A DNA stretch of 64,000 nucleotides from Calothrix sp. PCC 7716 (GTDB lineage: Bacteria; Cyanobacteriota; Cyanobacteriia; Cyanobacteriales; Nostocaceae). The stretch lies in assembly GCF_019977735.1 (NCBI RefSeq), contig NZ_AP025018.1:4278001-4342000 (forward strand), read 5' to 3'. Positions 1 to 64,000 of the stretch are shown here, piece after piece. The translations under genes were made by a program, and so were the position numbers. The first letter of the stretch is position 1. The number at the start of each line of letters is the position of its first letter. The notes beneath the pieces were generated by a model, which made no database searches, was not told where the DNA came from, and was given only the letters and a program-made list of their open reading frames with translations.

Positions 1-519
1 GTTTTCTGGCCAATGGTATTACCAATGGTTATTTTGGCTGGATTTGTATTGCACTTACCATTAATACTAGAAAGCTTATCTTTACTACCTTCCTGGGCAG
101 TACTCAATAAAGATGTAGCTTTGTTGCTGATATGGTCGAGTATATTTGGTGTAAGCATTGCTGGGGTGATTTACTTGGGTGACTTCATTCCCAAACCAGT
201 TAAACTTCCGCTGCAACCTCTACAAAACTTGCTAGCTTACGATTTTTACACTCCCAAGCTGTACCGTGCGAGCATAGTATTGGGTGTCGATTTAATATCA
301 AAACTTACCGATATCGTTGACCGCTTCGTTGTTGATGGTATCGTTAACCTATTTGGTTTAATTTCCCTTGGTGGTGGTGAAGGACTCAAATACAGTAACT
401 CTGGACAAACACAGTTCTACGCATTAACCATTTTGCTTGGAGTTAGTCTATTAGGCGCCTTCGTTACCTGGCAATTCTGGGGAGACGAATTTATGCATTT
501 AATGTCCGCAGTTCAGTAA
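1..519 (+). CDS. ndhF3: NDH-1 subunit 5, CO2-uptake type (C-terminal part)
   Basis: The reading frame is open from the first base, so this is the 3' end of a gene cut by the window edge. About 172 residues remain: hydrophobic helices, then a loop rich in Pro-Lys, a segment with the YDFYTPKLY motif, and a last membrane helix ending near WQFWGDEF. This fits the C-terminal end of the NdhF antiporter-like proton-pumping subunit of cyanobacterial NDH-1. The ndhD and cupA genes that follow identify it as the low-CO2-inducible NdhF3 of the NDH-1MS complex in the thylakoid membrane. The first ATG in the window (13) is internal, not the start. Sure of family; isoform inferred from context. Confidence 0.88.
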   Translation, partial: VFWPMVLPMVILAGFVLHLPLILESLSLLPSWAVLNKDVALLLIWSSIFGVSIAGVIYLGDFIPKPVKLPLQPLQNLLAYDFYTPKLYRASIVLGVDLISKLTDIVDRFVVDGIVNLFGLISLGGGEGLKYSNSGQTQFYALTILLGVSLLGAFVTWQFWGDEFMHLMSAVQ

Positions 520-674
520 AAAGTGCTGAGTGCTGAGTGCTGAGTAGAGTTAGTAGTTAGGAGTTAGGAGTTAGGAGTTAGGAATTAACTAACACTCAAA
601 ACTTAAAACTCAAAACTCAAAACTCAGCACTCAGCACTCAGCACTCAGCACTCAGCACTCAGCACTTTCAACTT
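520..674. repeat. Heptamer tandem repeats forming a large dyad
   Basis: The spacer between ndhF3 and ndhD3 is almost wholly short tandem repeats. TGAGTGC units come first, then TAGGAGT units, then CTCAAAA units, then many ACTCAGC units. The first and last blocks are complementary, so a long hairpin is possible. These resemble the STRR heptamer repeats long known from heterocystous cyanobacteria. A related block lies at 55407-55539 and a short one at 56439-56469. Lying inside an operon, the block could change mRNA stability between ndhF3 and ndhD3. Confidence 0.85.
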
Positions 675-689
675 ATTTAGAATGAATTT

Positions 690-4474: not shown

Positions 4475-5018
4475 TTAAACTGGACTCTATTACTTGCCTT
4501 TGCTGTTGTTGTTGTAACTGGTGCATATGGTTAAACAATTTCCAGCAGTATTCTTCTGGCAACCCACAAGTAACGGCGCCTCGTAAAACTATATTAAAAT
4601 ACCAATCGTTCGGCGCCACTTCAGTAGCAAGTTTATTAACAACTACATAAGTACGCACATTTTTATAAACTTTACCGTGAGCGCGAACTTCAATTATTTC
4701 TTGACGATAACCACCTCTTGGCACGTCTTCACGTTTGTCTAACTGTTCGCTCAGGCGCCAAGGTAACTTGTACAATACACCTTTAACACTCGCTTTTGGG
4801 TCTGGTACTACATCCAATACACCACATTTACGAGTTTGTGAATAGCGATAAAAACCTAGTCGATAACCTTTTAGTGTTCCAGTACCCACTACATAAAGAT
4901 GAGTTTTTTCACCTAGTGACCGTTTTAAGTCCACTGGACACATACACGAACCATATGCAAAATAGTAAAATGTTGATTCTTCACTATGCTGTGATTCCAA
5001 GCTACCCAAATTATTCAC
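4407..5018 (-). CDS. Gamma-glutamylcyclotransferase-like protein with repeat-encoded tail
   Basis: A 203-residue protein of the GGCT/AIG2-like fold. The FYYFAYGSCM motif near residue 17 is the typical YGS substrate loop. GVLYKL and LDKRED near 85-95 hold the expected catalytic acidic region. These enzymes release 5-oxoproline from gamma-glutamyl amines or peptides; the exact substrate is unknown. The domain ends around residue 175. The last ~26 residues (PPTPLDKGG...SPLIKGG) come from the C/G-tract repeat, so the natural C-terminus has been replaced. The start is GTG. Confidence 0.75.
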   Translation of the reverse strand: MNNLGSLESQHSEESTFYYFAYGSCMCPVDLKRSLGEKTHLYVVGTGTLKGYRLGFYRYSQTRKCGVLDVVPDPKASVKGVLYKLPWRLSEQLDKREDVPRGGYRQEIIEVRAHGKVYKNVRTYVVVNKLATEVAPNDWYFNIVLRGAVTCGLPEEYCWKLFNHMHQLQQQQQRQVIESSLIPPTPLDKGGFNFSCSPLIKGG

Positions 5019-5162: not shown

Positions 5163-7835
5163 TTATCTGTTACTGAGTGTTGTTGCTGTTAAGTCATTCC
5201 AAGCTTTTAATACAACATTTAAGTTGTTTGGTAGTTTGTCGCGTGATGTATCATTATACTGAATTGTGCCATCTTCACTGGTTAAAGTATAAGTGATATA
5301 ATCTGCGGCGCCGCTTGGTGCAGGATAAGTAACATTTTGGAATAGTTCTGCCTGCCGTTTTAATAACTGTTCAAAGCGTTCTGTTTCTTCAATAGAAAGT
5401 CGGAAAACTCTGCGCTCTGAATCATTTGTATCACCTAAACGAGTTTGAATAAGGCGCCCATCTTCGAGTAAAACTGTTTCGTAGGTTCTGCCAACAATAC
5501 CACCTGTTGTTACATATCGGAATATTACACCATTTGTTAATGCTTTAGGTAATTCACGTGTAGGTATTGGTACACCACCGTTTGCTACTTCATCTACAAT
5601 TCTGCTAGCATCTTCATTTAATCGAAATGCAATTTTATTATTTGCACTGCCAACAAAGTTATTAGTGTGGTAAACAAAACGCTCTCTACCAACTGCTACG
5701 GTGATACGCCATCCTTTTACTGATGAAGAGGTAGTTGAGCTTCCATTCAAACCAAGATTACCATTTTTCCAAGTTACTTGTTCGGCGCCTGTAATGTTTT
5801 TAGTAGATACATTGACTTTCGCAACCGCGCGTTTTTGTGCATCTGCTAATACACTGTTTACTATCGCTCTTGGTATGCTAGCTACAGCTAGGTATTCAAA
5901 ACGAGTACTTTCTTTATCAACAGCGTATACCCAATTTTGCATTCCATCCGATACAGTTACTTCTGCATCAAATCTCTCAGAATTTCCTAACTTGATGTTT
6001 GTAATACGAAGGTCTGCTAGTTCATTACCAGAAGAACGTCTTAAAGCATCGCGTTTTATTACTTCTGCAAGTCTTGGTGCCAAAGCAGGAGTTTGGTCTT
6101 GATTTACAATTTTAGCATCTGCACTTACTAAATAAGTCCAGGCGCCAAGTCCACTATCAACCGTAACATTCCAACCTGGAGTAGGACGATATGACCTATC
6201 ACATATGGGGTTGAATGTTAAATTACAAGGGTTAGGGAAAGTTACTTTTTGTGAAGAAGTAATTCTAAATGTATCTTCAGAACGTCCCGACCATTTAGAA
6301 GCATCACGCAATACAGCGTCAGCAATATTTATGGGTATATTTACATTGCTACCTACCTGGTCTTGTCTACCACCCTGCACTAGTTTGAGTTGTGACCCAT
6401 TATCACTAACCAAATAAACCCATGCATCACGAACGTTGTTTGGTTTAACACTAACTTCCCAACCAGATACTGGTATCGGTGTACAAGCAGGTAAAGTTCC
6501 TGGGTCTTCACAACCGAAGAACCACTGCTTACGCTTGTACGAAACTAGCTCAAAATCTTTTTGTGGTAACTCCGCAGTTTGGGCAGCTTTAGATAAAACT
6601 GCATTTCTTGCTGCTTTTGGTAAACCATCTGCTAATAACTGTAAAGACTGACCGTTGTCATTACTCAAATATACCCAACGGTCTTGCTCGTTACCTACAG
6701 TTACTTTCCATATATATGATGAATTACGTCCTTGTTCCCATTTTCCACTTTCGATATTAACAACCGATAATGCTGCTACAGGTATTCCTGTACCTTCAGA
6801 AACGCGCCGTAATATTCTATCACTGACAACTTGGGGCAGCTTGATATTACTTGCAGCTAAATTCAATCTTACTTGTGAACCATCTGGTAAAACATGGTAC
6901 ACCAGGCGCCGTTGACCTGCTTCTACTGTGACACGAAATGCAGGTTGTGCTATTTTAGTGCAAGCTTCATTTGGTCTTGCTAAACCCAAACAACCATCAA
7001 CGGTTATTTGTTGAACACTTGCAATTTCTAAATCAGAAACTGGTAAACCTGTATTGCGAACAGCCGCTCTTAAAACTGCGCGTTCAGCTTTATCAGATAA
7101 ACCTTTGTTATTAACATCGCTTTCAGTTCTATTTAATCTAACAATAGAACCACTTTCATTAGTATGGTAAACCAAATTTACGTTTTTAATACCAACAACA
7201 ACACGCCAACCAGAAACTATTACTTGACTACATGCTCTGTTCGGTTCAGCGAGTTCCAAACATCCATCTCTCCAATCTCGCGCTTGTGCTTGAGTAATGT
7301 TAAGCTGTCTGGGTAGCACTCTTAAACGAGATGATGCATCTCTAATTACAGCATCACGAACTCTATTGGGTAAACGAGTGTTATTGCTATTATCAGCAAT
7401 ATTTCGATTAGTAACACGTAAAACACGACCATTGTTATTAGTATGATAAATAAAATTGTTGCGACCGTCAGATGCTATAACTTGCCATCCTGGAACTAAC
7501 GCTTGTGTACAAAGTTCACCGGGACCTGCTATCTCTAAACAACCATTACGCCAAGTTCTTTCAGTAGATTCAACTATACTTATATTTGCTGGTAAAATAC
7601 CTTGGCGCCGCGATAAGTCTCTGATAACGGCATTTCTGACCGAACGAGGTAAATTACGAGTAGCACTGACTTTTATAGCTTCTTTTGTAACGTTTGATGT
7701 AGAATTTAAAGGTGCCGCTGTAGCACTCTTAATTAAAGTGACGCTGCTACTAACTGACAAAATACCGCTTAATACCAAAGCAGTAACTTTTTGCCGCTGA
7801 TTCATGATAGAATGTTTTGTGATATTGCTTTTCAT
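5163..7835 (-). CDS. Large secreted protein with eight ~80-residue repeats
   Basis: About 890 residues. A Sec signal peptide is clear (VTALVLSGILSV then SATAA). Then come eight divergent repeats of about 75-85 residues. Each starts with a helix like LPRSVRNAVIRDLS, passes WxxGCL...CTxxxVPGW (two Cys in repeats 1-3 and 5) and ends with a strand like WVYxxNxxGxxLRL. Repeats 4, 7 and 8 lack the Cys pair. The last ~130 residues are a different domain beginning KALTNGVIFRYVTTGG. I do not recognise a function; the alternating helix and strands recall PepSY-like inhibitory folds, but this is only a guess. The first ATG after a TTG codon was chosen as start. Confidence 0.8.
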   Translation of the reverse strand: MKSNITKHSIMNQRQKVTALVLSGILSVSSSVTLIKSATAAPLNSTSNVTKEAIKVSATRNLPRSVRNAVIRDLSRRQGILPANISIVESTERTWRNGCLEIAGPGELCTQALVPGWQVIASDGRNNFIYHTNNNGRVLRVTNRNIADNSNNTRLPNRVRDAVIRDASSRLRVLPRQLNITQAQARDWRDGCLELAEPNRACSQVIVSGWRVVVGIKNVNLVYHTNESGSIVRLNRTESDVNNKGLSDKAERAVLRAAVRNTGLPVSDLEIASVQQITVDGCLGLARPNEACTKIAQPAFRVTVEAGQRRLVYHVLPDGSQVRLNLAASNIKLPQVVSDRILRRVSEGTGIPVAALSVVNIESGKWEQGRNSSYIWKVTVGNEQDRWVYLSNDNGQSLQLLADGLPKAARNAVLSKAAQTAELPQKDFELVSYKRKQWFFGCEDPGTLPACTPIPVSGWEVSVKPNNVRDAWVYLVSDNGSQLKLVQGGRQDQVGSNVNIPINIADAVLRDASKWSGRSEDTFRITSSQKVTFPNPCNLTFNPICDRSYRPTPGWNVTVDSGLGAWTYLVSADAKIVNQDQTPALAPRLAEVIKRDALRRSSGNELADLRITNIKLGNSERFDAEVTVSDGMQNWVYAVDKESTRFEYLAVASIPRAIVNSVLADAQKRAVAKVNVSTKNITGAEQVTWKNGNLGLNGSSTTSSSVKGWRITVAVGRERFVYHTNNFVGSANNKIAFRLNEDASRIVDEVANGGVPIPTRELPKALTNGVIFRYVTTGGIVGRTYETVLLEDGRLIQTRLGDTNDSERRVFRLSIEETERFEQLLKRQAELFQNVTYPAPSGAADYITYTLTSEDGTIQYNDTSRDKLPNNLNVVLKAWNDLTATTLSNR

Positions 7836-8077
7836 AGTCAAACCTGGAGGAGCAGTAATTAATCGTTAGTCATTAATTTATGGTAGATAACTAATTGTCA
7901 ACGACAACAAATTCTTCATCCTAAACTTATACTGTTCGGGACGAAATTTTAAACAAAATAAATATAGTATTGTTGCCCTGATATACAAAAATAGACGCAA
8001 ACTTACTCGCCCTTTGTTCCTTTGTTTTTACAGAAACTTTAAAAAGGGCGAGTCAGGCTATGTATATACCAGGACTT

Positions 8078-8160: not shown

Positions 8161-8166
8161 TGGCCA

Positions 8167-10103: not shown

Positions 10104-10200
10104 ATCGTGCTAGTGATATCTCTTTTTTTTCTTAATCATTCTTAATAATCCACTAACAACGGTCAAAAATCGAGTTTTAGAGAAGACTAAATTATCTTTC

Positions 10201-11584: not shown

Positions 11585-11586
11585 TT

Positions 11587-32057: not shown

Positions 32058-32531
32058 TTATTGGCGCCTGGAATTACTACTACCTAAAGGAGCATATCCA
32101 AATGTCGTATTAAACTGACGACACCAAATAGCAACCGATTTAAAATCTGCTAAATTAACATTTTCGGGTATTGCGTAGCGCTGAACACCATTTGTTCTTT
32201 GTAAACGAGCAAGCTGCACATAATCTTTTTCTTTGATACCATCGGGTACTGTTGTATTCCGATGCAAAATGACGTACAAATCTGGCCCATTATTAGTTTT
32301 AAACTTTTCGCTAAATTCAACGAAGCGTTTTCCATTTTGATTCACAATACGCGCATTTCCTTGAGTTGGATATTCCACTGCTCTAAAACTTCCAATTGCC
32401 GCACTCGCAGTTTTTGATGTTGTTTCACTCGAAGGCGCCTTTTCTGTATCGGTCTGGTTAGTACTAACGGAAGTCGTACAACTTGTCATTAATACTGCAA
32501 CGGCGCCAAGAATAGCCAATTTATATTTCAT
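32058..32531 (-). CDS. DM13-domain lipoprotein
   Basis: A 157-residue protein with a lipobox (LAILGAVAVLMTSC), so it is likely anchored to the membrane facing the periplasm. A low-complexity Ser/Thr linker is followed by a DM13 domain (GSFRAVEYPTQGNARIV, GPDLYVILHR, and the invariant Cys in VAIWCRQFNTTFGYAPL). DM13 domains are proposed redox or electron-transfer domains with the conserved Cys. Its stop is 9 bp from the convergent regulator gene. Confidence 0.88.
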   Translation of the reverse strand: MKYKLAILGAVAVLMTSCTTSVSTNQTDTEKAPSSETTSKTASAAIGSFRAVEYPTQGNARIVNQNGKRFVEFSEKFKTNNGPDLYVILHRNTTVPDGIKEKDYVQLARLQRTNGVQRYAIPENVNLADFKSVAIWCRQFNTTFGYAPLGSSNSRRQ

Positions 32532-32832
32532 ATTCCGTTTGATTGTGTCCCATAACTAAAATTTAAACCTTTTAGGAGATGACAGAACAAATATAAGTTG
32601 AGAATTTGCTTAAGTTTTATGCTTTTAATTTCAGCTTAATCTCACCCAGTTCTAATAAAACCTTTAACTATATTGGTTATTGTTGGTAATGTGGTGACTA
32701 TTACCGTATAAACACTTAAACTATTTATGTAATTATTAAGTATTATTAAGATAGATGTAATTTCATAAATTGCGTCAAACCCATTAATAGCAAAGTTTTG
32801 GGCAAAACATTTAAATCAAGACTTATAGCAAA

Positions 32833-35082
32833 ATGTCTGTATCGCACTTAAAACCTAAATCTCGATGGACAAGCAGCAGGCAACTGCAAACAGCAACGCT
32901 AATGTTAGTTGGCACCTTAATAATTTCGGGGTTAGTGGTCGCTCTCTGGTTTGCTGGTGAACACCGCATTAGTCAAATATTTGAGCAAGTTAATAAATTA
33001 CAGCAAAACCCACCAATGTGGTTAGAAGCACCTATGGTAACTGGTAAATATTTACTGGCGCCAACAATAGCATTATTTATAGGGGTGATAGCTGTAATGC
33101 GGGTTTCTCCACTACCACGCACCTGGTCACGACGCATTGTAGTAGGTATTGTAATTATATTGACTTTGCGTTATGTCACTTGGCGCAGCTTATCTACACT
33201 CAACTTAGTCAACCCCTTAAACGGTGTATTTAGCTTGGGACTTTTTGTGTTAGAAATGCTAATGCTAGTTAGCAGCACGATTCAATTATTCTTAATGCTA
33301 AACGTTAAAGACCGCAAGCGTGCTGCCGATATAAAATCTCAAGCTGTTATTGATGGCAGCTTTGACCCTACTGTAGACATTTTTATTCCTACCTATTCAG
33401 AACCAACGTTTATACTAAGACGTACTATTATCGGTTGCCAAGCTTTAGATTATCCCAACAAGAAAATATATTTGCTTGATGATACTAGGCGCCCAGAAAT
33501 GGCAGAATTAGCGAAACAGTTAAAGTGTAATTATATAACCCGACTCGATAACCTTCATGCTAAAGCAGGCAACTTAAACCATGCATTAACAAAAACGGAG
33601 GGTGAGTTAATAGTTATATTCGATGCAGACTTTATACCTACCACTAACTTTCTTACTCGTACCGTTGGCTTTTTCCAAGATAGTAACGTTGCACTCGTCC
33701 AAACACCGCAAAGCTTTTATAACGCAGACCCAATAGCTCGTAATCTCGGTCTAGAAAATATTTTAACTTCCGAAGAAGAAGTATTCTACCGACAAATTCA
33801 ACCAATTCGCGATGGCGCAGATAGCGTAGTATGTGCAGGAACATCATTTGTAGTGCGTCGCAGTGCATTACTAGAAACAGGTGGTTTCGTTACAGAATCT
33901 TTGAGCGAAGATTATTTTACAGGTATTCGTCTCTCAGCAAATGGATACCGTTTAATTTACTTAGATGAAAAATTGAGTGCAGGTTTAGCAGCAGAAAACA
34001 TTGCCGCTCATACTACACAAAGACTACGCTGGGCAAGAGGAACACTACAAGCATTTTTTATTACATCAAATCCACTAACGATTCCTGGACTTAGTTTAAT
34101 TCAAAGACTCGCGCATTTAGAAGGATTACTGCATTGGTTTACTAGTATATCGCGGGTTTATTTTCTCATTATGCCTTTAATGTACTCATTCCTGGGTGTC
34201 ATTCCCATCAAAGCCACTCCCGCAGAGTTAATGTTCTTTTTCTTACCTTATTATTTAGTAAATTTAGCAGTATTTGCTTGGTTAAATAATCACGCGCGTT
34301 CTGCCATACTCTCAGATATATATTCTCTAGTACTATGTTTTCCCTTAGCATTAACAGTTATTCAGGTAATGCTAAATCCTTTCTCTAGAGGTTTTAAAGT
34401 CACACCCAAAGGAACAGTAAACAACAATTATACATTCAATTGGAAACTAGCTCTACCTTTAATCTGTCTATTTATTCTTACAGCCATCAGCTTGTGGCGA
34501 AACTTAGGCATGTCTATGATACAAGGAGTATGGGCGCCTGAAGTTGATAACACCGTCAAAGGAATTGGTTTAGGTTGGCTATGGAGTACATATAACCTAA
34601 TTATGATTGGCATTGCCTTACTAATACTTCTAGATGCACCCAAACCAGATATTTACGAATGGTTTGATTTACGACGAGTCGTTAAATTAACCCTTAATGA
34701 TAATCAAACATTATGGGGAGTAACAACAATTATTTCAGAAGCAGGCGCCGAAATTGCCCTTACAAAAACTCCCCTCGACCTACTACCCAACTCTACAGTA
34801 CATCTAGAAATAGCAGAAGAAAACTTACAACTAGGCGCCGAAATCATCCAAACAGGAATTAATAACGAATACCATACTCTCAGAGTCAAATATACATCAC
34901 TTAGCTTGACACAACATCGGCGCCTCGTCAAAATGTTATTCTGTCGTCCAGGACAATGGAAGCGCAATAAAACACCAGGAGAACTTCAATCACTCTTACT
35001 AATATTCAGAATACTTCTAAAACCCCGCATCTTCTTTAACAGAAACCTAGAAGTCACCCCAATAGCACTCACCAAACTCTAA
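32833..35082 (+). CDS. Cellulose synthase-like family 2 glycosyltransferase with PilZ domain
   Basis: A 749-residue inner-membrane enzyme. Two N-terminal helices and two more near 120-160 precede the cytosolic GT2 domain with IPTYSEP, LLDDTRRPEM, FDADFIPT, VQTPQ, SEDYFTG and QRLRWARG, the full D,D,D,QxxRW set of processive synthases. Further helices (~410-600) and a C-terminal PilZ-like domain (~615-700) follow, but the RxxxR c-di-GMP motif is not obvious. It likely makes cellulose or a related beta-glucan and exports it. No bcsB/bcsZ partners are adjacent. 32532-32832 holds no gene. Confidence 0.88.
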   Translation: MSVSHLKPKSRWTSSRQLQTATLMLVGTLIISGLVVALWFAGEHRISQIFEQVNKLQQNPPMWLEAPMVTGKYLLAPTIALFIGVIAVMRVSPLPRTWSRRIVVGIVIILTLRYVTWRSLSTLNLVNPLNGVFSLGLFVLEMLMLVSSTIQLFLMLNVKDRKRAADIKSQAVIDGSFDPTVDIFIPTYSEPTFILRRTIIGCQALDYPNKKIYLLDDTRRPEMAELAKQLKCNYITRLDNLHAKAGNLNHALTKTEGELIVIFDADFIPTTNFLTRTVGFFQDSNVALVQTPQSFYNADPIARNLGLENILTSEEEVFYRQIQPIRDGADSVVCAGTSFVVRRSALLETGGFVTESLSEDYFTGIRLSANGYRLIYLDEKLSAGLAAENIAAHTTQRLRWARGTLQAFFITSNPLTIPGLSLIQRLAHLEGLLHWFTSISRVYFLIMPLMYSFLGVIPIKATPAELMFFFLPYYLVNLAVFAWLNNHARSAILSDIYSLVLCFPLALTVIQVMLNPFSRGFKVTPKGTVNNNYTFNWKLALPLICLFILTAISLWRNLGMSMIQGVWAPEVDNTVKGIGLGWLWSTYNLIMIGIALLILLDAPKPDIYEWFDLRRVVKLTLNDNQTLWGVTTIISEAGAEIALTKTPLDLLPNSTVHLEIAEENLQLGAEIIQTGINNEYHTLRVKYTSLSLTQHRRLVKMLFCRPGQWKRNKTPGELQSLLLIFRILLKPRIFFNRNLEVTPIALTKL

Positions 35083-35087
35083 CACCT

Positions 35088-35135
35088 CTTGTGGAACAGG
35101 CATCATCTTGTGGAACAGGCATAGAAAGCCTGCTT
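35088..35135. repeat. Partly duplicated TTGTGGAACAGGCAT repeat
   Basis: CTCTTGTGGAACAGGCAT occurs twice in a row, then GAAAGCCTGCTT closes the hairpin. Same family as 18245 and 36259. Downstream of the glycosyltransferase gene. Confidence 0.75.
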
Positions 35136-35250
35136 AATTATACTAAAATAATGTTACAGTTCAACCCTAGAATTATGACATTTCGCTACCTTGAACTTCC
35201 AATCAGATAACAGAGATTGTAATCCTTATTGTTGCGTAGGGTGGGCAGTG

Positions 35251-35429
35251 CTAGCCCTGTCAAGGTGAGCATGAGTACTACGCATTTATTCGGGTTTTAG
35301 CCTTGCACTGATTAAAATTTGAAAGCAAAAAATTAAATTTGCGCTCAATTTTATATTTCAGAGTTGGGGGTACAACGTAAAAATAAGGCTTTTGTCTAGT
35401 ACACAAGTGGTACACCTTGACAGGGCTAG
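35251..35429. mobile_element. 179-bp MITE-like element
   Basis: Perfect 17-bp terminal inverted repeats, CTAGCCCTGTCAAGGTG at the left and its reverse complement at the right, bound a 179-bp AT-rich element with no ORF. It is flanked on both sides by the direct repeat GTGGGCAGTG (35241-35250 and 35430-35439), a 10-bp target-site duplication. The element sits in a palindromic GGTGGGCAGTGCCCACC repeat whose right half follows intact. So a non-autonomous transposon inserted into another repeat. No transposase is in the window. Confidence 0.85.
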
Positions 35430-35533
35430 GTGGGCAGTGCCCACCTTACCCTAATTGAGAAGTTGCAAGATATAAGGTAAGTGAAAACAACATTAGAACA
35501 TGTTTAATATAACATTTTATATTAAAAAAGAAT

Positions 35534-35565
35534 TGTAGAGACATCTTTGAGCAGGCGCCTCTACA
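35534..35565. repeat. Degenerate TGTAGAG palindrome
   Basis: TGTAGAGACATC...GGCGCCTCTACA, ends match the TGTAGAGACG family, middle diverged. Downstream of the minus-strand gene at 35612. Confidence 0.6.
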
Positions 35566-35611
35566 GTTACCATAAATTCGTTTTATACTTGTAGCCAGAC
35601 AATCAAAAAAC

Positions 35612-36226
35612 TTAAATGTATTCGTTTTGATTAACAGTTGCTGTGTAGGTATCTTTTTGTTCAGAAGAATCGGCGCCTTCGTTACCTTGGCTATCAGCTT
35701 CTGTTTCGGGATTTGAGTAAGCTGCGTTTTTAACAGAATCAACTGTATTATAAGCAGCAGTTTTAACAGTGTCAGTAGTATTTTTAACAGTATCATTAAC
35801 GTTTACTACTGTATTTTTGACTTTATCTACAGAAGCGTTAACAGTGTTATTAACGTCTACCGCTGTATCCTTGATTATATCTCCAACATTTTTTGTTGTA
35901 TCGCTAACACCGCTTGCCACAGTATTAACAGTTTCACCTATTGCTGCAACTGTTTGGTTAAAACCTTGTGCTGTGTTTCTAACAACATTAGTTACACCTT
36001 GTATCGTTTGACTCAGCTTTTCACCAATTCCTTTTATTGCTAATGTACCAGCAATTGCACCTACTCCGGCGCCAATTAAGCTTCCAATAACAACTTTCGA
36101 TAACTCATTATTACGTGCATTATTTGCTTTCTGAGACTCCTCATTCAAAATGTAAGGATTAGAAAATGTATCCTGTGTTGATATATTTTGTCTTTCTGGA
36201 GGTAATAATGGTTGATTGCTATTCAT
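35612..36226 (-). CDS. Glycine-zipper and amphipathic-repeat protein (LEA-like)
   Basis: A 204-residue protein. Disordered N-terminus, then a glycine-zipper hydrophobic segment (VIGSLIGAGVGAIAGTLAI, ~45-65), then ~110 residues of repeated amphipathic helix rich in Val, Asn, Thr and Lys (VNDTVKNTTDTVKTAAYNTVDSVK), with acidic tail. The pattern resembles LEA or apolipoprotein-like helices that coat membranes or protect against drying. It is a paralogue of the next gene (36359-37384) and probably arose by tandem duplication. Function unproven. Confidence 0.7.
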   Translation of the reverse strand: MNSNQPLLPPERQNISTQDTFSNPYILNEESQKANNARNNELSKVVIGSLIGAGVGAIAGTLAIKGIGEKLSQTIQGVTNVVRNTAQGFNQTVAAIGETVNTVASGVSDTTKNVGDIIKDTAVDVNNTVNASVDKVKNTVVNVNDTVKNTTDTVKTAAYNTVDSVKNAAYSNPETEADSQGNEGADSSEQKDTYTATVNQNEYI

Positions 36227-36258
36227 AACAAGCTCCTCATAAAAAATTATTTTCTTAC

Positions 36259-36316
36259 TCTTGTGTATGCTCTTGTGTATGCTCTTGTGGAACGGGCATC
36301 CTGCCTGTCCAACAAA
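36259..36316. repeat. CTCTTGTGTATG triplet plus GGCATCC palindrome
   Basis: Two CTCTTGTGTATG units and one CTCTTGTGGAACGGGCAT unit, then CCTGCCTGTCCAACAA. This lies between the two paralogous minus-strand genes and may have arisen by slippage of the palindrome's left arm. Confidence 0.7.
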
Positions 36317-36358
36317 CTAAAATACAGGGTGACTCAAGCCACCCCATATTAAATTGAC

Positions 36359-37384
36359 CTATTCAAAAGCACTACCAGTACGGTTGATTTCTTCTTCTAA
36401 TGAATCCATATCAATAGAAGCAGAAGCTCTACGTGCTTCAAGGTCTGAAGCTGGACTTACATAAATAGAGGCAGAACTTGTATCGCTCATTGGGCTGCTC
36501 ATACTGCTTGTTGATTGACCAGCAGTATAACCACTACTGTATTGACTACCTGAAGGCGCCGATTTAGGTTGCTGCGCTTCGTACTTAAATGTATCAGTTG
36601 CATACTGCACCGACTGATTCAAATTTTCAGCAGTGTTCTGTACATTGTCAGCTCCAGATTTGACTGCTTGGTTAAGACCATCTGCTGTACTTTGCACAGC
36701 GTCAGCTCCAGATTTGACTGCTTGGCTGAGACCATCTGCTGTGCCTTGTACAACATCAGCTCCAGCTTTTACTACTTGACCTACACCTTGACTTACACCT
36801 TGTGCAGTACTCTGTACAGCATCCATTGTGCCAGCTGCTACTTGTGAAGCGCTGTCAGCAACACCTTTTGCTGTGTCTACTGCACCACCAACAACTGCTT
36901 GGGTTGTACCCTCAGCTACACTTTGTACTGCTTGTCCTAAACCTTGACCTGTTTGCATTAAACCAGAACCGATGGTTTTAGCTGCTTCACCAAGACCCTT
37001 AGTTGCGTGCCCAAAACCTTGAGCAATTCTTTTGCCAGCAAATGCAGCAGCTAAAGACCCTAAAGTACCACCAATAAGTCCACCTAACAGTACTCTGCTC
37101 AATGTATTATTTTTCTCTTGTTCTGATGGACTTTTCATATCTGTATTTCCAGAACCAGAGAAACCACCACCATACTGTTGATTAAACTGACCAGATGGTT
37201 GGTTGTATTGCTGACTATATGGTTGATTAGATTGACTATATTGCTGATTGTTATATTGTTGACCGTATCCGCTACGGCCTTCATAGCCCTGTCTACCTAT
37301 ATCACTCATATTGGCATCGGCGCCTGTTTGACTTTGATAATACTGATTATCACGTTGCTCATTGTTTCGTATGTTATCAACCAT
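36359..37384 (-). CDS. Q/N-rich, glycine-zipper, 18-residue-repeat protein (LEA-like)
   Basis: A 341-residue protein. The N-terminal ~85 residues are Gln/Asn/Tyr/Gly-rich and prion-like (QQYNNQQYSQSNQ). A glycine-zipper LGGLIGGTLGSLAAAFAG follows (~105), then ~150 residues of amphipathic helix with four consecutive 18-residue units such as GLSQAVKSGADAVQSTAD; the coding DNA shows a matching 54-bp period. The tail is Ser-rich and acidic. Similar helices bind lipid surfaces or act as LEA protectants. Paralogue of the neighbour at 35612. No known enzymatic motif. Confidence 0.7.
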   Translation of the reverse strand: MVDNIRNNEQRDNQYYQSQTGADANMSDIGRQGYEGRSGYGQQYNNQQYSQSNQPYSQQYNQPSGQFNQQYGGGFSGSGNTDMKSPSEQEKNNTLSRVLLGGLIGGTLGSLAAAFAGKRIAQGFGHATKGLGEAAKTIGSGLMQTGQGLGQAVQSVAEGTTQAVVGGAVDTAKGVADSASQVAAGTMDAVQSTAQGVSQGVGQVVKAGADVVQGTADGLSQAVKSGADAVQSTADGLNQAVKSGADNVQNTAENLNQSVQYATDTFKYEAQQPKSAPSGSQYSSGYTAGQSTSSMSSPMSDTSSASIYVSPASDLEARRASASIDMDSLEEEINRTGSAFE

Positions 37385-38356
37385 ATTCTTCGACTCCTTG
37401 TAAAGGCAAAATGTGTTTCGATAATGCTAATTTAGCGGTTGAAAACAGTATATTAACCTTTCTATAGACAGAGTATATTATTTTTTTATCTACATCTATA
37501 GCGGTAGCATTTAATCAAATTTAATCGCTATCTTAATCAATGAAAACTACTAACACAGATTTATACTTTTATTTAAACAAATTATTAATTTTTACATAAA
37601 AATTCATTTGTTTAATATCTTCTTAACCTTCTGTGAATACGACAGAAAACCTTACTGTCTAGAGGCTAATTAGAAACTGTTAGATATAAAGAAACGGGGT
37701 TGATTATCAAAATATTTATTTATTATGTATCGATAAAACCCGGTTTCTCGGAGTAATTAATAATATTTCCTTACCTAATACCTTGCACCCCTACCTCGCT
37801 CCCAAAAATTGCAGCTTGCTAACCAAGTTTTCCTTTATGGTAGTCGAAAAGCTTATCGTTACGTAAGGTGGGCAGTCCCCACCTTACTTTGCTTTACACG
37901 TATTACTTTTTAGTTACTTCTGACACACTATTTATAAAATATTACGGTACTTGGTATCGAAATCACTAATTACATGAGGCGCCATACTGATTTGATTTCC
38001 TCCGCCTATCTTCACCTCCTAAGTTAAGAACTAAAACCCTTATAATCATCTTTCTTTAGGATGAGTTAGATTAATATTTGATTGCTTTCAGCGAGTAATA
38101 ATTATGTATGTAAGGTCTGCTCAAAAGCATGTATAATAAGGCTTATAGATAATATTAAAACATTTGTATAGGTGAAATGTGACTACTTACTTGCACAAAT
38201 TAAAAATGTGACTATATTCTGGCTGCCAATGTAAGTTAGTAGCTCCAAAAACGAAAACAGAAGCGAATAGCTTATAGTTGCCATAAAACTTATAAATCTA
38301 AATCAGAAATACATTACCTTACCTTTGTCAGATTTTTTTCTCATCAGCAAATTATA
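37385..38356. other. ~970-bp intergenic region with two repeats
   Basis: AT-rich divergent spacer without a credible gene. It carries an AAACGGGG...AAACCCGGTTTC element at 37691-37751 (relative of 8078-8160) and a GTAAGGTGGGCAGTCCCCACCTTAC-type palindrome at 37863-37887. The remainder would hold promoters of both flanking genes. Confidence 0.7.
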
Positions 38357-39007
38357 TTGTTTACACAGGTAATACATATAAACTTAACCACGGAGAAACA
38401 ATTGCAAACCTCGAAACTACTACGGGATATATTACAGCGTCACTCAGCAGAACGTATATACTTAAGAGATTTAGTTTCTGAGATGAAAGAACGTTCGTTT
38501 GCAGGGTTATTAATGATTTGTGCATTACCAGAAGCTCTACCATTACCTGTTGCCGGAGTTTCTGCAATTATTGGTATACCGTTGATGATAGTTTCTCTTC
38601 AGTTGCTTTTGGGTTTTCGCAAACCTTGGTTGCCAAGTTGGATAGCTAACCGTTCGTTAAAGCGTAAAGATGTAGAGAAGCTTTTCAATAAAATTTTGTC
38701 AATCCTTGAAAAATACGAAAGTGTAATTCGTCCACGTTGGAAATTTGTAACTCACCCAAACGTACAACGTTTGCTCGGACTATTACTTCTCATACTGGCT
38801 TTTATTATTGCGCTTCCCATTCCTTTCGGGAATATGCTTCCTGCGATTATTATCATTATCATTAGTTTGGGTTTAATTGAGCAAGATGGTATTGTGATAG
38901 CTTTGGGTGCGTGTTTATCTTGTATACTCTTCGCTTTTGTCGCATATGCACTACTTGCTTTAAGCCAGTTTATCCCAAAATTCAATAGTGGGTTCTCCGC
39001 TCGGTAA
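38357..39007 (+). CDS. ExoD-family membrane protein
   Basis: About 216 residues with the ExoD (exopolysaccharide synthesis) signature: SAERIYLRDLVSEMKERSFAGLLMICALPEALPLPVAG, then GIPLMIVSLQLLLG and a second pair of helices (LLLLILAFIIALPIPFGNMLPAI). Predicted inner-membrane protein. ExoD is needed for normal exopolysaccharide in rhizobia, mechanism unknown. The start shown is TTG; there is no ATG before the conserved core begins, so the first residues are uncertain. Confidence 0.8.
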   Translation: MFTQVIHINLTTEKQLQTSKLLRDILQRHSAERIYLRDLVSEMKERSFAGLLMICALPEALPLPVAGVSAIIGIPLMIVSLQLLLGFRKPWLPSWIANRSLKRKDVEKLFNKILSILEKYESVIRPRWKFVTHPNVQRLLGLLLLILAFIIALPIPFGNMLPAIIIIIISLGLIEQDGIVIALGACLSCILFAFVAYALLALSQFIPKFNSGFSAR

Positions 39008-39118
39008 AATAGTTCTTTCGGTATATGAAACGTAAAAATTTAAGTTAGATAATTAGAAGTATATATCAAAAAATTATATACAGTACCGTCAAATTTTTAA
39101 GACTCGTTAAAAAATACG

Positions 39119-40462
39119 ATGAAATTAATAGAAATAATACGTTCTAAATGGAACTTTTTTAAAAAGGCATTAAAAACTTCGGCGCCAAGTGAAAAACTCC
39201 AGCAATATAAAAAAGCCTCTTTATTTCCTAATGGTAAAGCAAACAAGGCAGCATTGTCGGTGGTCATGCGCGGTGTTGCCGAAGTCTTATCACAAAAAAT
39301 GAACCTACCCTGGAAAACTGAAGCCAGTAATAATACTTTGAGTTACGAACAAATTAATAGCGGCAAAGGAAAAATTTGTTATTACATCACCGATAACCCA
39401 GAAACCCCGCAACCAGATACTTTAGTTGAAGAAACTGCTCTTAACGTTATCGACCAATTCGACCCTAGAGCTTGCGCTATTCATTTAATATACTGTGCCC
39501 TTGCTGCAAACCTTGACAAACCTTGGGAACAGAGTTTTGTCATTGACGACAAACAGCTACTTGAGTATACAGGACTCGTCAGGCGCCGCGACTTGTGCAA
39601 ACACGAACAATTGAGCATTTTATATGAACTATTACGTCAACCAGCCCAGATATTAGCTCGTATAGTTTGGCCTAAGCAAGGAAAAGTCGGAGCATTTACA
39701 GTTGCAGATTTAAAAATCTGGGATATCACCGTATTGAGAGACTACCAAACCGACAAAGCTGGTAATACCAAGTTAGTTGGTTTAAAAGTCATTGGTAAAG
39801 CAGGCGCCTGGGCAAAATACTTTCTCAACAAATCAGACTATCATTACAGCACAGGTGTAATCACCAAAAAAACCGTCCAAAAACTATTTAGCATCGGCAA
39901 GCAAAATATTGGCGCCGCAAGAATGTTAGTATGGCTAACCTTCCAAGTACAACCAGGCAAACAAGACAGTGTAATGGGTAAAACCCTAATGGAAATAGCT
40001 TACGGCGCCGAAAAAGTATCAATGGTCGAACAAGACAGACAACTTAGACGCTCCTTAGCAGATGACTTTGAAACAGATTTAAAAGTAGTCAAAGATGCAG
40101 GTTGGCATGTGGAAGTTAACCAAGGAACAGTTTGGCTAAAAAGTGAACACCCAACTAAAAGACCTATTGGTTACTGGAACGACTTATTAAATACAACATT
40201 GCGTATTCAATTACCAACCGACGCACAAGAGTATTTAGCGCTACCAGAAAATCAATATATAGTAAATAATGTCGAAGAAACTCTTAAACCTCCAACAGCT
40301 AACGTTATTAGAGAAGCAAGAAAAGCCAAAGGTTGGTCAAGAGCAGTGTTTGCTACTAGGATGGGAAAAAGTATATCTTGGGTTGATGCTATAGAGACAG
40401 GTCATCGTCAAGTTTCTCAAAAAGACTTGCCCAAAATAATTGATGAACTTGAATTGGAATAG
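39119..40462 (+). CDS. Helix-turn-helix protein of cyanobacterial type, function unknown
   Basis: A 447-residue soluble protein. The long N-terminal part (VMRGVAEVLSQKMNLPWKTEASNNTLSYEQ, ITDNPETPQPDTLVEETALNVIDQFD, and a WAKYFLN motif) is like a multi-copy cyanobacterial family of unknown role, with some features of plasmid replication-type winged helices. The last ~55 residues are an XRE/Cro-type HTH (IREARKAKGWSRAVFATRMGKSISWVDAIETG). Likely DNA-binding. It is followed at once by a C/G-tract repeat. Confidence 0.7.
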   Translation: MKLIEIIRSKWNFFKKALKTSAPSEKLQQYKKASLFPNGKANKAALSVVMRGVAEVLSQKMNLPWKTEASNNTLSYEQINSGKGKICYYITDNPETPQPDTLVEETALNVIDQFDPRACAIHLIYCALAANLDKPWEQSFVIDDKQLLEYTGLVRRRDLCKHEQLSILYELLRQPAQILARIVWPKQGKVGAFTVADLKIWDITVLRDYQTDKAGNTKLVGLKVIGKAGAWAKYFLNKSDYHYSTGVITKKTVQKLFSIGKQNIGAARMLVWLTFQVQPGKQDSVMGKTLMEIAYGAEKVSMVEQDRQLRRSLADDFETDLKVVKDAGWHVEVNQGTVWLKSEHPTKRPIGYWNDLLNTTLRIQLPTDAQEYLALPENQYIVNNVEETLKPPTANVIREARKAKGWSRAVFATRMGKSISWVDAIETGHRQVSQKDLPKIIDELELE

Positions 40463-40465
40463 AAT

Positions 40466-40579
40466 GATCCCCCCCTAACCCCCCCTTAATAAGGGGGGGA
40501 AAAGAAAGTAAACAAACAATTCTTAGCCATATATGTAAGCAATTCTTAGCCCCCCTTATTAAGGGGGGTTGGGGGGATC
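40466..40579. repeat. C/G-tract palindrome pair between convergent genes
   Basis: Two long C/G-tract hairpins (CCCCCCTTAATAAGGGGGG types) with ~60 bp between, including a duplicated AATTCTTAGCC motif. The right unit overlaps the last codons and stop of the minus-strand gene 40559-42166. Confidence 0.85.
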
Positions 40580-42166
40580 AAAATTAGTCCCTAATTTATA
40601 CAGAGAGTAAAACTTATCTGAGTAAACACGATTCATTTTAGAGTCATACACTGTTTCTATATTACGTCGCAACTGATTAGGAGGATTCAACACATAGACA
40701 CTTGAAGATAAATTTACCACCTTCGGCGCCGAATTTTCTCTAAATAATAATAATCTTACTTCTGAATTCAACAAATAACTCAAAGAAAAAACGTTACCAT
40801 AATTAATTCCAGCATCATCGCTAATTAAAACCGAGCGTGATTGATTAATAATGCGAGCAACTTCAGGGTTTCCATAACTAACAACTTTATTCCACCAAGT
40901 ATCAGCTTGAGAATTAACGGCAATTGAAATAATTCCAAGCGTTAGTATTGCCACTGTCATTCTACACCAAATTTGGCGCCGTGAGAAAATACCGTCATTA
41001 ACTTGATAGCATAAAAAGTAAGCAACAGCTATAATTATCCCTAAATATGAAGGTATCAAATATCGCTCAGAAACTGACCGCATTCCACCCAAAATTAAAT
41101 CAGGTATTACTAACGGTAACGCTGGAATAAAAATTAGAGTTACAACAAACAACCATACCTTTATATTTGTTCTTACATATAAAAAGTAAATAGCATAGCT
41201 CACAAAACCCAAAACGAACAACGCAGCTAAATATTGAAAAATATTATCTAAATTCCAATTAAAATCAAAAAAAATACGCGTAATTTGCAATAACCAAGAT
41301 TGAACTAAATTTGTTACAGGAATTGGCGCCTGTGTCCATTCAGTAGTAATATTAAATCTATAGAAATTAGTAGCAACAATAATCAACCAAGGACTAACAA
41401 ACAAAAAACTAACTAACATCGCTGTTAAAAAAGCTTCTACAGTTCTTGTCAATTTAAATTTAGCTGTAGTAATTACATAAACAGCATGAGCAATTGCGAC
41501 AAATCCACTCAGTAAAAATGTGTACATGCTTAATGCCAAACTCAATGCGTATATTCCCCAATTAAAAACAGGATATTTTATATCTTGCGATTCTTCAACT
41601 TTTATCGCACGTAATAAACAACCACTCGATAATAAAATAGTTACAGCCCAAAGAATATACTCACGCGCTTCAGTAGAATAAACAAATAATATTGGCGAAC
41701 ATAACGTTAATGCTACAGCAAAATAAGGCGCCCCTAATGGAACTCTAAACAATAAATAACACAACCAATACATAGAAGGAATTAACAATAAACTAATCAC
41801 AGCAGATAAACATCTAATAGCTGTTACCGAGTTACCAAAAATAGCCACCCAAAACCGCGCCAATATATAATAAAGCGGTGGATGCTGAGGGTCTTCAATC
41901 GCCAAAGAGTTAATAGTATCAATCAAACCTCTATCATTATTAACACCTTGAAATTTAGCTAAACTATCGCTCGTAATTACACGACCATTAAACACTTCCC
42001 GCTTGACTTCACTTGCTGTATATCCCGATACTCGCAGCATTGTAAAAGTTTCATCATGCCAAAAAACTTTACCGTCTAGGTTCACGAAGCGAAAACACAC
42101 TCCTAGCAGTAAAACCACAACAATAAAATACCGTAACCAATTAGGAGCAATTCGGAGATGCTTCAT
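40559..42166 (-). CDS. Family 39-like membrane glycosyltransferase (ArnT/PMT type)
   Basis: A 535-residue integral membrane protein with about 11 helices. The N-terminal VFWHDETFTMLRVSG has the acidic pair in the first periplasmic loop typical of GT-C/GT39 enzymes using polyprenyl-phosphate sugars, and EDPQHPPLYYILARFW is the family motif. It likely glycosylates a lipid or surface polymer in the periplasm. The last residues, NFDPPNPP, and the stop come from the palindromic repeat, so the natural C-terminus is altered. No operon partner. Confidence 0.82.
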   Translation of the reverse strand: MKHLRIAPNWLRYFIVVVLLLGVCFRFVNLDGKVFWHDETFTMLRVSGYTASEVKREVFNGRVITSDSLAKFQGVNNDRGLIDTINSLAIEDPQHPPLYYILARFWVAIFGNSVTAIRCLSAVISLLLIPSMYWLCYLLFRVPLGAPYFAVALTLCSPILFVYSTEAREYILWAVTILLSSGCLLRAIKVEESQDIKYPVFNWGIYALSLALSMYTFLLSGFVAIAHAVYVITTAKFKLTRTVEAFLTAMLVSFLFVSPWLIIVATNFYRFNITTEWTQAPIPVTNLVQSWLLQITRIFFDFNWNLDNIFQYLAALFVLGFVSYAIYFLYVRTNIKVWLFVVTLIFIPALPLVIPDLILGGMRSVSERYLIPSYLGIIIAVAYFLCYQVNDGIFSRRQIWCRMTVAILTLGIISIAVNSQADTWWNKVVSYGNPEVARIINQSRSVLISDDAGINYGNVFSLSYLLNSEVRLLLFRENSAPKVVNLSSSVYVLNPPNQLRRNIETVYDSKMNRVYSDKFYSLYKLGTNFDPPNPP

Positions 42167-61592: not shown

Positions 61593-63857
61593 ATGCTGAA
61601 GAAGCTACAAAAAAAGCAAATTTCTCTGATTGCGGGTGCTGGGTTGTGTGCCTTTCTAGCTGGAGCTTTGGTTTCAGCCCCTGAGATTGGCAAAAACTTT
61701 GGTAATTTGTTTAAATCTGGTAGGGACAAACCTGAACTCCTAACAGAAGAAACCAAAGCCAAATCAGCCGTACTACCTCTGGTTGTACAATCCCCGCAAG
61801 AACGGACGGCTAAACTTGAGGCTATTGCCAAAGGTTCTCCCTCAACTGACCGCAACCGCGCACGCTATCTATTAGCCAGCGATTTGATTGAAAGTAAAGA
61901 TGCCAAAAACGCCCTAAAGCATCTTGATAAGCTTGAAAATGATTACTCACAACTGGCGCCTTACGTCATTCTAAGACAAGCACAAGCGCACGAAATGTTA
62001 GGAGAAGATGGCAAAGCGTCAGATTTACGACAAAAGGTAATCAAAGATTATCCAACGCACCCTGCTACAGCTAAAGCGCTTTATTTGATTAGCACTAAAG
62101 AATATCAAGACCAAGCAATTGCTCAATTTCCATCACATCCTCTAACTTGGGAAATTATCAAGAAGCGCTTGGGCGAAAATCCTAACCAACCACAATTGCA
62201 GTTAGCATTGGCAAAATACTCGTTTGACCAACCGGGTATCACTGAAGTTTTGAACAAACTTGTCAATGACCCAACTCTCAAACCCGAAGAGTATGAAATT
62301 TTGGGAACTGCATTTTGGGAAAATAATGAGTTTGGTAAAGCTTCAACCGCTTACAGCAAGGCGCCTCGTACTGCTCGCAATTTATACCGTGCTGGACGCG
62401 GTTTGCAAGTTGGTGGAGAGCGCGAACAAGCTGCTGCGACTTATCAGGCATTAATTAGAGAATTTCCAGAAGCGCGAGAAACCGGAACAGCGTTAATACG
62501 AATGGCAGAAATAACATCTAATAAAAAAGATGCTCTGCCATATCTTGACGATGTTATCAGTAAATTCCCTGATAAAGCAGGCGCCGCACTAGTTAAAAAA
62601 ATAGAGATTCTCAAATCACAAAACGATGGCAAGGGTGCGGAAGCTGCACGCAAACTGTTAATTGACAAGTTTGGCAATACTGAAGAAGCTGCCGAATACC
62701 GTTGGAAAGTTGCTCTCGACAAAGCCAAAGCAAAAGATTTTAAAGCTGCTTGGCAATGGGCAGAACCAATTGCTACTAACAACCCCGATAGCATTTTGGC
62801 GCCACGAGCAAGTTTCTGGGTCGGAAAATGGGCTTCATTACTTGGTAAACAAAACGAAGCCAAACAAGCATATGAGTACACAGTAAGTAATTTTCCATAC
62901 TCTTACTACGCTTGGCGTTCAGCAGGGCTTTTAGGGTTAAACGTCGGAAACTTCAACAACGTTAGAGATTTAAAACCTCAAATTGTCGAACTTGTTCGTC
63001 CTGTACCTACAGCAGGTTCAGAAACATTTAAAGAATTATACCTGTTAGGACAAGACCGGGATGCTTGGTTACAGTGGAACACCGAATTCCAAAACAAAAT
63101 GCAGCCAAGTATAAACGAGCAGTTTACCGAAGGCTTAATGCAACTTGCAAGAGGTGAAAATCTTAAAGGTATTGACACAGTTTCGACGCTCGAAGACCGT
63201 GATGCACCTGAAGATTTAGCACAATATCAAACACTAAAAAAACAGCTGATCTATTGGCAAGCGCGCTACCCCTTCCCATATATTGACATCATCGAAAAAT
63301 GGTCAGCGCAGCACAAAGTCAACCCATTGCTCGTGACAGCAGTAATGCGTCAAGAGTCCAGGTTTGAGAAAAAAGCTAAATCAACAGCAGGCGCCACAGG
63401 CTTAATGCAAGTAATGCCAGCAACGGCAGAATTCATTGCACCGCAAATTAAACAGGATATCAAGAACATACAACTTGAAAAACCTGAAGACAATATCATG
63501 CTTGGAACATGGTATCTAGGACATACCCACGACCAGTACAAAGAAAACTCCCTCCTGGCAATAGCATCTTACAACGCAGGCCCAGGTAACGTATCCAAAT
63601 GGTTAACAACCTTACCAAAAGACGACCCCGACAACTTCGTCGAAAACATACCCTTCGACGAAACCAAAAACTACGTTCGTCAAGTATTTGGTAACTACTG
63701 GAACTATCTGCGTTTGTACAACCCTGAAATTTCGCAAATTGTCGCGAAATACTCAGCCGAACATCCTAAACTACCTCACGAAGGTTCACAAGACCAAGCA
63801 GCAACACAACAACCTGCCGCAGAAACACAACAAAAGACCGAAAAACCCAAACAATAA
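61593..63857 (+). CDS. Slt-type soluble lytic transglycosylase with TPR superhelix
   Basis: About 754 residues from the ATG at 61593; an upstream in-frame TTG at 61527 would add 22. An N-terminal membrane anchor or signal (ISLIAGAGLCAFLAGALVSA), then ~500 residues of helical TPR-like repeats (HLDKLENDYSQLAPYVILRQAQAHEMLGEDGKA), then a C-terminal SLT domain with the catalytic Glu in AVMRQESRFEKKAKSTAGATGLMQVMPATA and SYNAGPGNVSKWL. It cleaves peptidoglycan to give anhydromuropeptides in the periplasm. The tail is Gln-rich. Confidence 0.92.
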   Translation: MLKKLQKKQISLIAGAGLCAFLAGALVSAPEIGKNFGNLFKSGRDKPELLTEETKAKSAVLPLVVQSPQERTAKLEAIAKGSPSTDRNRARYLLASDLIESKDAKNALKHLDKLENDYSQLAPYVILRQAQAHEMLGEDGKASDLRQKVIKDYPTHPATAKALYLISTKEYQDQAIAQFPSHPLTWEIIKKRLGENPNQPQLQLALAKYSFDQPGITEVLNKLVNDPTLKPEEYEILGTAFWENNEFGKASTAYSKAPRTARNLYRAGRGLQVGGEREQAAATYQALIREFPEARETGTALIRMAEITSNKKDALPYLDDVISKFPDKAGAALVKKIEILKSQNDGKGAEAARKLLIDKFGNTEEAAEYRWKVALDKAKAKDFKAAWQWAEPIATNNPDSILAPRASFWVGKWASLLGKQNEAKQAYEYTVSNFPYSYYAWRSAGLLGLNVGNFNNVRDLKPQIVELVRPVPTAGSETFKELYLLGQDRDAWLQWNTEFQNKMQPSINEQFTEGLMQLARGENLKGIDTVSTLEDRDAPEDLAQYQTLKKQLIYWQARYPFPYIDIIEKWSAQHKVNPLLVTAVMRQESRFEKKAKSTAGATGLMQVMPATAEFIAPQIKQDIKNIQLEKPEDNIMLGTWYLGHTHDQYKENSLLAIASYNAGPGNVSKWLTTLPKDDPDNFVENIPFDETKNYVRQVFGNYWNYLRLYNPEISQIVAKYSAEHPKLPHEGSQDQAATQQPAAETQQKTEKPKQ

Positions 63858-63860
63858 TGT

Positions 63861-64000
63861 CATTCTGAGAATCTCAACTGTCATTCTGAGCGCAGCGTAA
63901 ACGAAGTTTTCCCGTTATCCGAAGGATATCCCGAAGGGTAGGGTAGAATCTCAACTACCATTCACATTTTACGAGATGCTACCCTGCGGGAAATCCTGCG
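63861..64000. repeat. GTCATTCTGAGCG-type interspersed repeat at window end
   Basis: GTCATTCTGAG, then GTCATTCTGAGCGCAGCG, then CGAAGGATATCCCGAAGG and AGAATCTCAAC; partner of the copy at 42503-42592. Extends past the window. Confidence 0.75.

Follow-up and report, generated by a model that had tools for sequence, protein, structure and literature searches.

It has long been an open question why cyanobacteria hold a single palindrome in thousands of copies. HIP1 (GCGATCGC), the word iterated in most cyanobacteria, is a GC-rich highly iterated palindrome (HIP) found about once per kb and linked to solitary methyltransferases (Elhai 2015, PMC4390886). The passages of that paper drawn on here give HIP densities of 1,000-2,000 copies/Mb, report an alternate HIP, GGCGCC, from Calothrix PCC 7103 on data from one genome and 19 kb of Calothrix D253, describe exceptional HIPs as sporadic and not arranged in clades, and propose a ratchet in which G-m5C (5-methylcytosine after G) directs mismatch repair. 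They also place two GRCGYC methyltransferases in PCC 7103, the second copy of which is maybe critical, and state that the methylated base is known for no GRCGYC-specific enzyme. In the BsaHI paper, as far as it is used here, the base that M.BsaHI methylates in vitro is the central C of its GRCGYC target and HindVP itself was inactive in the test reported (PMC2413257). Here we analysed a 64-kb stretch of the Calothrix sp. PCC 7716 genome (G000:C1:4278001-4342000; hereafter the window), which is densely populated with GGCGCC, together with related genomes. The swap to GGCGCC covers the whole genus of the window, in which this word has replaced HIP1 throughout.

The window has a GC content of 38.6% and contains 115 copies of GGCGCC, one per 557 bp, against 3.3 expected from base composition and 5.3 and 5.0 from first- and second-order Markov models. 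It is the commonest hexameric palindrome of the window, 23-fold above the second-order expectation, and the most over-represented of all hexamers with at least 15 copies, and the sequence flanking its sites varies. HIP1 and CGATCG are both missing from the 64 kb and GATC is scarce (Table 1). A first-pass annotation, made from the letters of the window alone, had estimated about 115 GGCGCC, roughly one per 550 bp, in DNA of about 39% GC where only a handful would be expected, and had noted the missing HIP1 and only about a dozen GATC, all of which agrees with the exact counts. Contrastingly, its impression that GCGCGC is also common did not hold, as the 12 copies show no excess over the second-order expectation of 11.9.

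Over the 12,367,066 bases (12.37 Mb) of the G000 genome, GGCGCC occurs 20,380 times and the reversed control CCGCGG only 7 times, while HIP1 is not over-represented (66 copies, compared with 64 of its reversed control word). All eighteen 20-kb stretches sampled over contigs C1, C2 and C4 carry GGCGCC (14-55 per stretch). The survey comprised 145 genomes of the family, seven from the genus of the window and 138 others, with per-Mb densities resting on rounded genome sizes. Besides G000, the genus is represented by Calothrix PCC 7103 (G127), Dulcicalothrix desertica PCC 7102 (G138), Calothrix NIES-4105 (G115), HK-06 (G076), FI2-JRJ7 (G030) and C42_A2020_038 (G101). All seven contain 7,475-20,380 GGCGCC (1,150-1,711/Mb), compared with 0-1,053 (at most 111/Mb) in the 138 others. 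HIP1 is reduced to 31-163 copies per genus genome, equivalent to 3.6-22.6/Mb against a median of 737/Mb, and exceeds 1,000 copies in all other family genomes except G022, G082 and G083. Furthermore, 1.23 Mb pooled from the seven genus genomes contain 1,963 GGCGCC, 21-fold above the second-order expectation, and are depleted in GATC (observed/expected ratio (O/E) 0.19). With open reading frames (ORFs) called from an ATG start over at least 100 codons, the excess in this pool is 22.8-fold inside ORFs (1,698 sites) and 15.4-fold outside (265 sites), and the ORF sites are distributed over the three reading frames as 869/362/467. The annotation had likewise seen sites mostly within genes and in all frames, and had named a near-expected genome-wide GGCGCC count or HIP1 abundance elsewhere in the genome as outcomes that would speak against it, both of which the whole-genome counts exclude. 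The lineage-level swap of motifs that it had proposed was recovered in the comparison with sister genomes, being present in 7/7 genus genomes and in 0/138 others.

GGCGCC sites are actively kept. Hexamer comparisons between orthologous regions (DNA identity in the aligned parts 78-94%) excluded any window containing a gap or an unaligned base, after alignments shorter than 200 bp and overlapping matches had been dropped, and GGCGCC was better kept than hexamers of the same composition in 8/8 of them. From G000 to G138, 261/282 sites were kept, compared with 228/285 control hexamers, and 15 of the 282 aligned sites were one change off. The corresponding values were 89/156 and 60/156 from G000 to G101, 89/109 and 60/161 in the reverse direction, and 106/139 and 88/134 from G000 to G115, which was the weakest contrast. 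Places at which the encoded protein is compatible with the word are filled in 868/1,879, 362/715 and 467/810 cases in frames 0, 1 and 2 of the genus pool (46-58%), and in 475/920, 189/402 and 230/396 cases in G000 alone. The codon distortion is pronounced, with 869/1,880 Gly-Ala pairs of the pool written as GGC-GCC, about 21 times the 41.6 expected by codon usage, compared with 0/399 in stretches of eight outgroup genomes. Dipeptide use is distorted as well, since Gly-Ala has an O/E of 1.14 in G000 and 1.15 in its sisters but 0.83 in the outgroup stretches (GA:AG p=2e-4), a contrast that may in part reflect avoidance of restriction sites in some of the outgroups; Ala-Pro against Pro-Ala shifts in the same way.

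The changes by which sites are lost are biased towards the central C. For three species pairs with no genome in common, the counts of central-C transitions versus the remaining single changes at sites were 28:10, 23:13 and 12:8, compared with ratios of 0.50-0.52 for other nnCGnn hexamers and 0.32-0.43 for nGCGCn (sites against nnCGnn: p=8e-7, 5e-4 and 0.03). Counted over all ordered pairs (not mutually independent), non-central exits were about 5 times rarer at sites than at control hexamers (2.98% vs 15.5%) and the central transition 1.4 times rarer (7.2% vs 9.8%). The central C-to-T change is the only exit that is not strongly suppressed, a pattern expected if the third-base C is 5-methylated, which is the base required by the model set out in Elhai's paper (PMC4390886).

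Matches to C5 methylases were listed in the seven genus genomes, and the longer ones were collected and clustered. One orthologous group is present as a complete ORF in 7/7 genomes, with sister copies 85-93% identical to that of G000, and the genus proteins form a single clade (FastTree support 0.996, 39 sequences). This methyltransferase is intact and under purifying selection, with ratios of non-synonymous to synonymous substitution rates (dN/dS) of 0.03-0.15. Its locus is conserved in 6/7 genomes, which have an upstream gene of 390-394 amino acids (aa) and the first downstream genes in common. As G101 and G138 each encode a single full-length copy, a second copy is apparently not required. 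The protein contains the motif strings FAGCGG, GGPPCQ, ENV, QSRKR and GNA, consistent with the C5 fold and catalytic motifs. The recognition loop described for BsaHI has an R eleven residues before a TL pair, a G or A just after the R and a shared C-TL trimer (PMC2413257). An xRR string followed by A or G, plus NRP, was found in 7/7 genus proteins and 9/9 listed non-genus relatives; loop letters were compared with these relatives only, and the G/A lies nine before TL in the BsaHI paper and ten before T here. The genus loop trimers are those of five listed relatives with an adjoining endonuclease-family gene, and the predicted specificity is GRCGYC. The suspicion, voiced from the window alone, that a different solitary methylase stands behind the swap is supported by this putatively GRCGYC-type gene, although its predicted target is wider than GGCGCC. 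A second C5 methyltransferase of 658 aa (L088, L089) lies about 4.8 kb upstream of the solitary gene in D. desertica PCC 7102 and Calothrix PCC 7103 and was not found within 6.5 kb of it in G000, G030 and G115. In addition, a 663-aa open frame with two tandem C5 methylase-like matches was observed at G137:C3:129334-131166.

One gene family adjoins six of the nine non-genus methyltransferase relatives examined, some copies being in pieces, and corresponds to PF09519 RE_HindVP in all three proteins scanned. HindVP-type endonucleases were identified in 31/138 other family genomes, several matches containing stop codons, and in 0/7 genus genomes (one query, E<=1e-8), so the genus methyltransferase appears to be solitary. 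Other candidates were rejected. A genus-specific N4/N6 methylase does not qualify, as the full-length PF01555 group present in all seven genus genomes, judged by lengths and scores, also occurs in 3/3 comparison genomes (ten searched, seven of the genus and three others). The other C5 group found in 7/7 genomes (L009 type) lacks genus specificity, with matches, some of them weak, in 110/138 other genomes at E<=1e-20. Cluster 2 (L025 type), considered as the CGATCG enzyme, is neither ubiquitous nor genus-wide (22/138 others and 5/7 of the genus at E<=1e-60). Hence no HIP1-associated CGATCG or GATC methylase was identified in the genus.

Full-length relatives of this enzyme (at least 57% identity; partial or split ones, e.g. 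in G034, G069, G144, G003 and G118, are left out) occur in 34/138 other genomes, 27 with and 7 without an endonuclease match, and GGCGCC density in these 34 is 0-43/Mb. For the HIP1-poor genomes G022, G083 and G082, which lack close relatives of the enzyme, the GGCGCC counts are 326, 3 and 15, respectively. No new iterated palindrome was seen in about 78 kb of G022 and about 100 kb of G083; HIP1 is the top listed octamer in the G083 sample and has 7 copies against 0.3 expected in that of G022. Neither the orphan enzyme alone nor HIP1 loss alone accompanies the swap in this sample, and the genus has both, which is a correlation. HIP1 density in G022, G083 and G082 is 50, 104 and 9/Mb, and GATC is strongly depleted in the G022 and G083 samples.

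On balance, we lean towards the reading that the alternate HIP GGCGCC replaced HIP1 before the divergence of the sampled species of the genus and was maintained thereafter, and that its most likely cause is the solitary GRCGYC C5 methyltransferase acting via biased repair. A HindVP/BsaHI-type GRCGYC restriction-modification system would have lost its endonuclease, leaving a solitary enzyme that would methylate the central cytosine (GG-m5C-GCC). Mismatch repair would take G-m5C to label the strand that should be retained, as in the proposal of Elhai (2015, PMC4390886), so that a mutation creating a methylatable GGCGCC would be fixed and one destroying it reverted. Sites would then build up where the sequence tolerates them and be lost chiefly as the methylated C deaminates, giving GGTGCC. 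The sequences themselves show the swap across the genus, the orphan gene, the maintenance of sites, the distortion of codon and dipeptide use and the exchange bias at the central C. From these we infer methylation of the sites by this enzyme and a drive that comes from repair and not from fitness, favouring Elhai's ratchet over direct selection with modest confidence. A wider proposition, which we hold to be possible rather than probable, is that whichever orphan methyltransferase couples to mismatch repair determines which word a cyanobacterial lineage iterates. HIP1 may have failed at the base of the genus and a domesticated GRCGYC enzyme taken over, with methylation-directed, self-reinforcing conversion rewriting about half of the codon-compatible positions and thereby changing dipeptide use.

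Several observations weigh against biased repair by this enzyme. Part of the mutation footprint is a general CpG component, as central transitions make up 32-34% of single changes in controls and 68% at sites. A polarised count, from which places where two outgroups disagree were dropped, found 70 of 104 ancestral sites kept throughout, compared with 475/1,396 control nnCGnn hexamers. Eighteen of 39 losses led to GGCACC and 7 more were sites lost in the whole ingroup, but this count was rejected as not specific for deamination, because C3>T/G4>A changes also dominate the losses of other CpG hexamers; the footprint claim rests on the ratio comparison. The predicted GRCGYC target includes other words that are depleted in the genus pool (GACGTC O/E 0.18, GACGCC/GGCGTC 0.27), a depletion compatible with their conversion to GGCGCC and also with a relic of restriction. 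Mutual avoidance of sites, predicted by the saturation idea in Elhai's paper (PMC4390886), appeared in a pooled spacing test (98 close pairs at 12-60 bp across the seven genomes vs 168 expected; 14 of 38 candidate control codon pairs run). Within-gene shuffling in G000 gave 53 close pairs vs 64.5, with 36/1,000 shuffles at or below, and saturation was set aside, as the pooled signal was mostly gone and hence mostly gene-to-gene variation. Furthermore, G076 has its full-length methyltransferase in a different gene context, with pieces at 84% and 90% identity at contig ends. Methylation of GGCGCC in the genus is a prediction from sequence, and no protein reading G-m5C for repair was identified. 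Finally, the genus represents one evolutionary event, so that every gene that became fixed at its base would show the same correlation; the gene screens covered the C5 (PF00145) and N4/N6 (PF01555) methylase families only.

Direct selection for a function of GGCGCC as recombination hot spot, nucleoid or segregation signal or uptake mark, whether the methyltransferase serves that function or is incidental to it, seems to us rather unlikely. It would account for the strong maintenance of sites over the observed range of DNA identity, for the filling of about half of the eligible positions in all three frames and for a density inside the HIP range given by Elhai, yet these data are equally compatible with a mutation-like drive. 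A wholesale change of word within a family would need a changed reader too, as Elhai argued (PMC4390886), and contigs C2 and C4 are as dense as C1 in the samples, which indicates no chromosome-specific role.

Compositional or codon bias or a leftover of restriction avoidance, with no active process, is very improbable. The genus does avoid many other palindromes and its word counts are generally distorted, but avoidance lowers counts, whereas GGCGCC is enriched even outside ORFs; the GGC-GCC excess over codon usage and the lower conservation of same-composition hexamers in every comparison refute this reading. Distribution of GGCGCC by a short mobile element or repeat, the most remote of the alternatives, would fit its dispersal across the genus and over other contigs. 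However, sites differ mostly by single substitutions in gap-free orthologous alignments (gapped windows were left out and insertions uncounted), as in the G000/G138 comparison above, and their flanks vary. Vsr next to Dcm in Escherichia coli is the model for very-short-patch T:G repair. Such repair beside m5C could over-correct GGTGCC/GGCACC to GGCGCC and so build the excess, and exchange with these two words is indeed the dominant single step (345/510 over all ordered pairs, not independent). It predicts, however, that GGTGCC is the most depleted neighbour, whereas it is the least depleted (O/E 1.35, others 0.23-0.91), which makes Vsr-like repair unlikely as the sole cause. Moreover, the Gly-Ala pairs GGT-GCC, GGC-GCA and GGA-GCC number 84, 24 and 9 against about 126, 110 and 75 by codon frequencies, and all other exits are suppressed too, so we regard this explanation as improbable.

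Several further palindromes are nearly absent from the genus pool (GTCGAC 0, TGCGCA 1, TTCGAA 2, GTGCAC 1, CGTACG 1, CCGCGG 1, CCATGG 2) and GGCC has an O/E of 0.11; the near-absence of many palindromes suggests a history of many restriction systems. CGCGCG is the second most over-represented hexameric palindrome (O/E 2.8, 459 copies). Calothrix PCC 7103 contains an 18-kb stretch (G127:C7:3778788-3796736) without GGCGCC and with 4 HIP1 and 31 GATC, which may have come recently from a cyanobacterium of the HIP1 type, and a milder resemblance is seen at G000:C1:2600001-2620000 (15 GGCGCC, 3 HIP1). HIP content could mark transferred DNA.

Table 1. Features of the window and the putative methyltransferase gene of the same genome.
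Feature	Position	Strand	Details
GGCGCC palindromes (115), window-wide	1..64000	.	first 454, last 63390; largest gap 2,645 bp (25939 to 28584)
HIP1 absence and GATC scarcity	1..64000	.	GCGATCGC 0, CGATCG 0, GATC 10 vs ~131 expected
Close GGCGCC pair, example	4575..4617	.	sites at 4575 and 4612
Anchor for site-by-site comparison	32085..42000	.	homologous DNA in 6/6 sister genomes; common to all ~32085-35067, 40592-42000
Solitary C5 methyltransferase, predicted GRCGYC type, outside the window	G000:C1:10950578-10951453	minus	PF00145, 218 bits

Much of the swap and methylase picture is already in print for Calothrix PCC 7103 (PMC4390886), the only source found in the openly licensed literature for GGCGCC with HIP1, GGCGCC with Calothrix or HIP1 with Calothrix. 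Within that literature, the present analysis adds the clade-wide persistence of the trait, the solitary conserved methyltransferase, the maintenance of sites with Gly-Ala enrichment and the central C-to-T exit pattern. A swap shared by a whole genus removes one of the two arguments for a function of HIP1 itself that were described as compelling by Elhai, namely that replacements are sporadic and not in clades (PMC4390886), and it leaves one orphan enzyme as the narrowed-down suspect. Calothrix PCC 7103, D. desertica PCC 7102 and Calothrix NIES-4105 are offered as strains in which biased repair and selection could be told apart. Were the repair model to hold, an epigenetic mark would be steering sequence evolution across the genome, down to protein composition.

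Like HIP1, GGCGCC is a highly iterated GC-rich palindrome, but a different word. It behaves as a member of the HIP class, being the top hexamer and an extreme over-representation outlier (O/E 21-23), lying within the 1,000-2,000 copies/Mb range in 7/7 genomes, occurring where HIP1 is low, as alternate HIPs do, and being accompanied in 7/7 genomes by an encoded C5 methyltransferase predicted to recognise it. The alternate HIP that Elhai described in PCC 7103 shares the word, the near-loss of HIP1, the depletion of GATC and other GRCGYC words, and the GRCGYC methyltransferases. In contrast to that account (PMC4390886), the trait is found here in seven of seven genomes, two of which have a single methyltransferase copy, and the central base is backed by the mutation footprint and the 2008 BsaHI work (PMC2413257). 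With BsaHI/HindVP-type GRCGYC systems, the genus enzyme shares the C5 motifs and the recognition-loop trimers of relatives that lie beside PF09519 endonucleases. Unlike in those systems, no endonuclease was found in the genus, the gene occupies one conserved locus in six of seven genomes, and GGCGCC is enriched rather than avoided.

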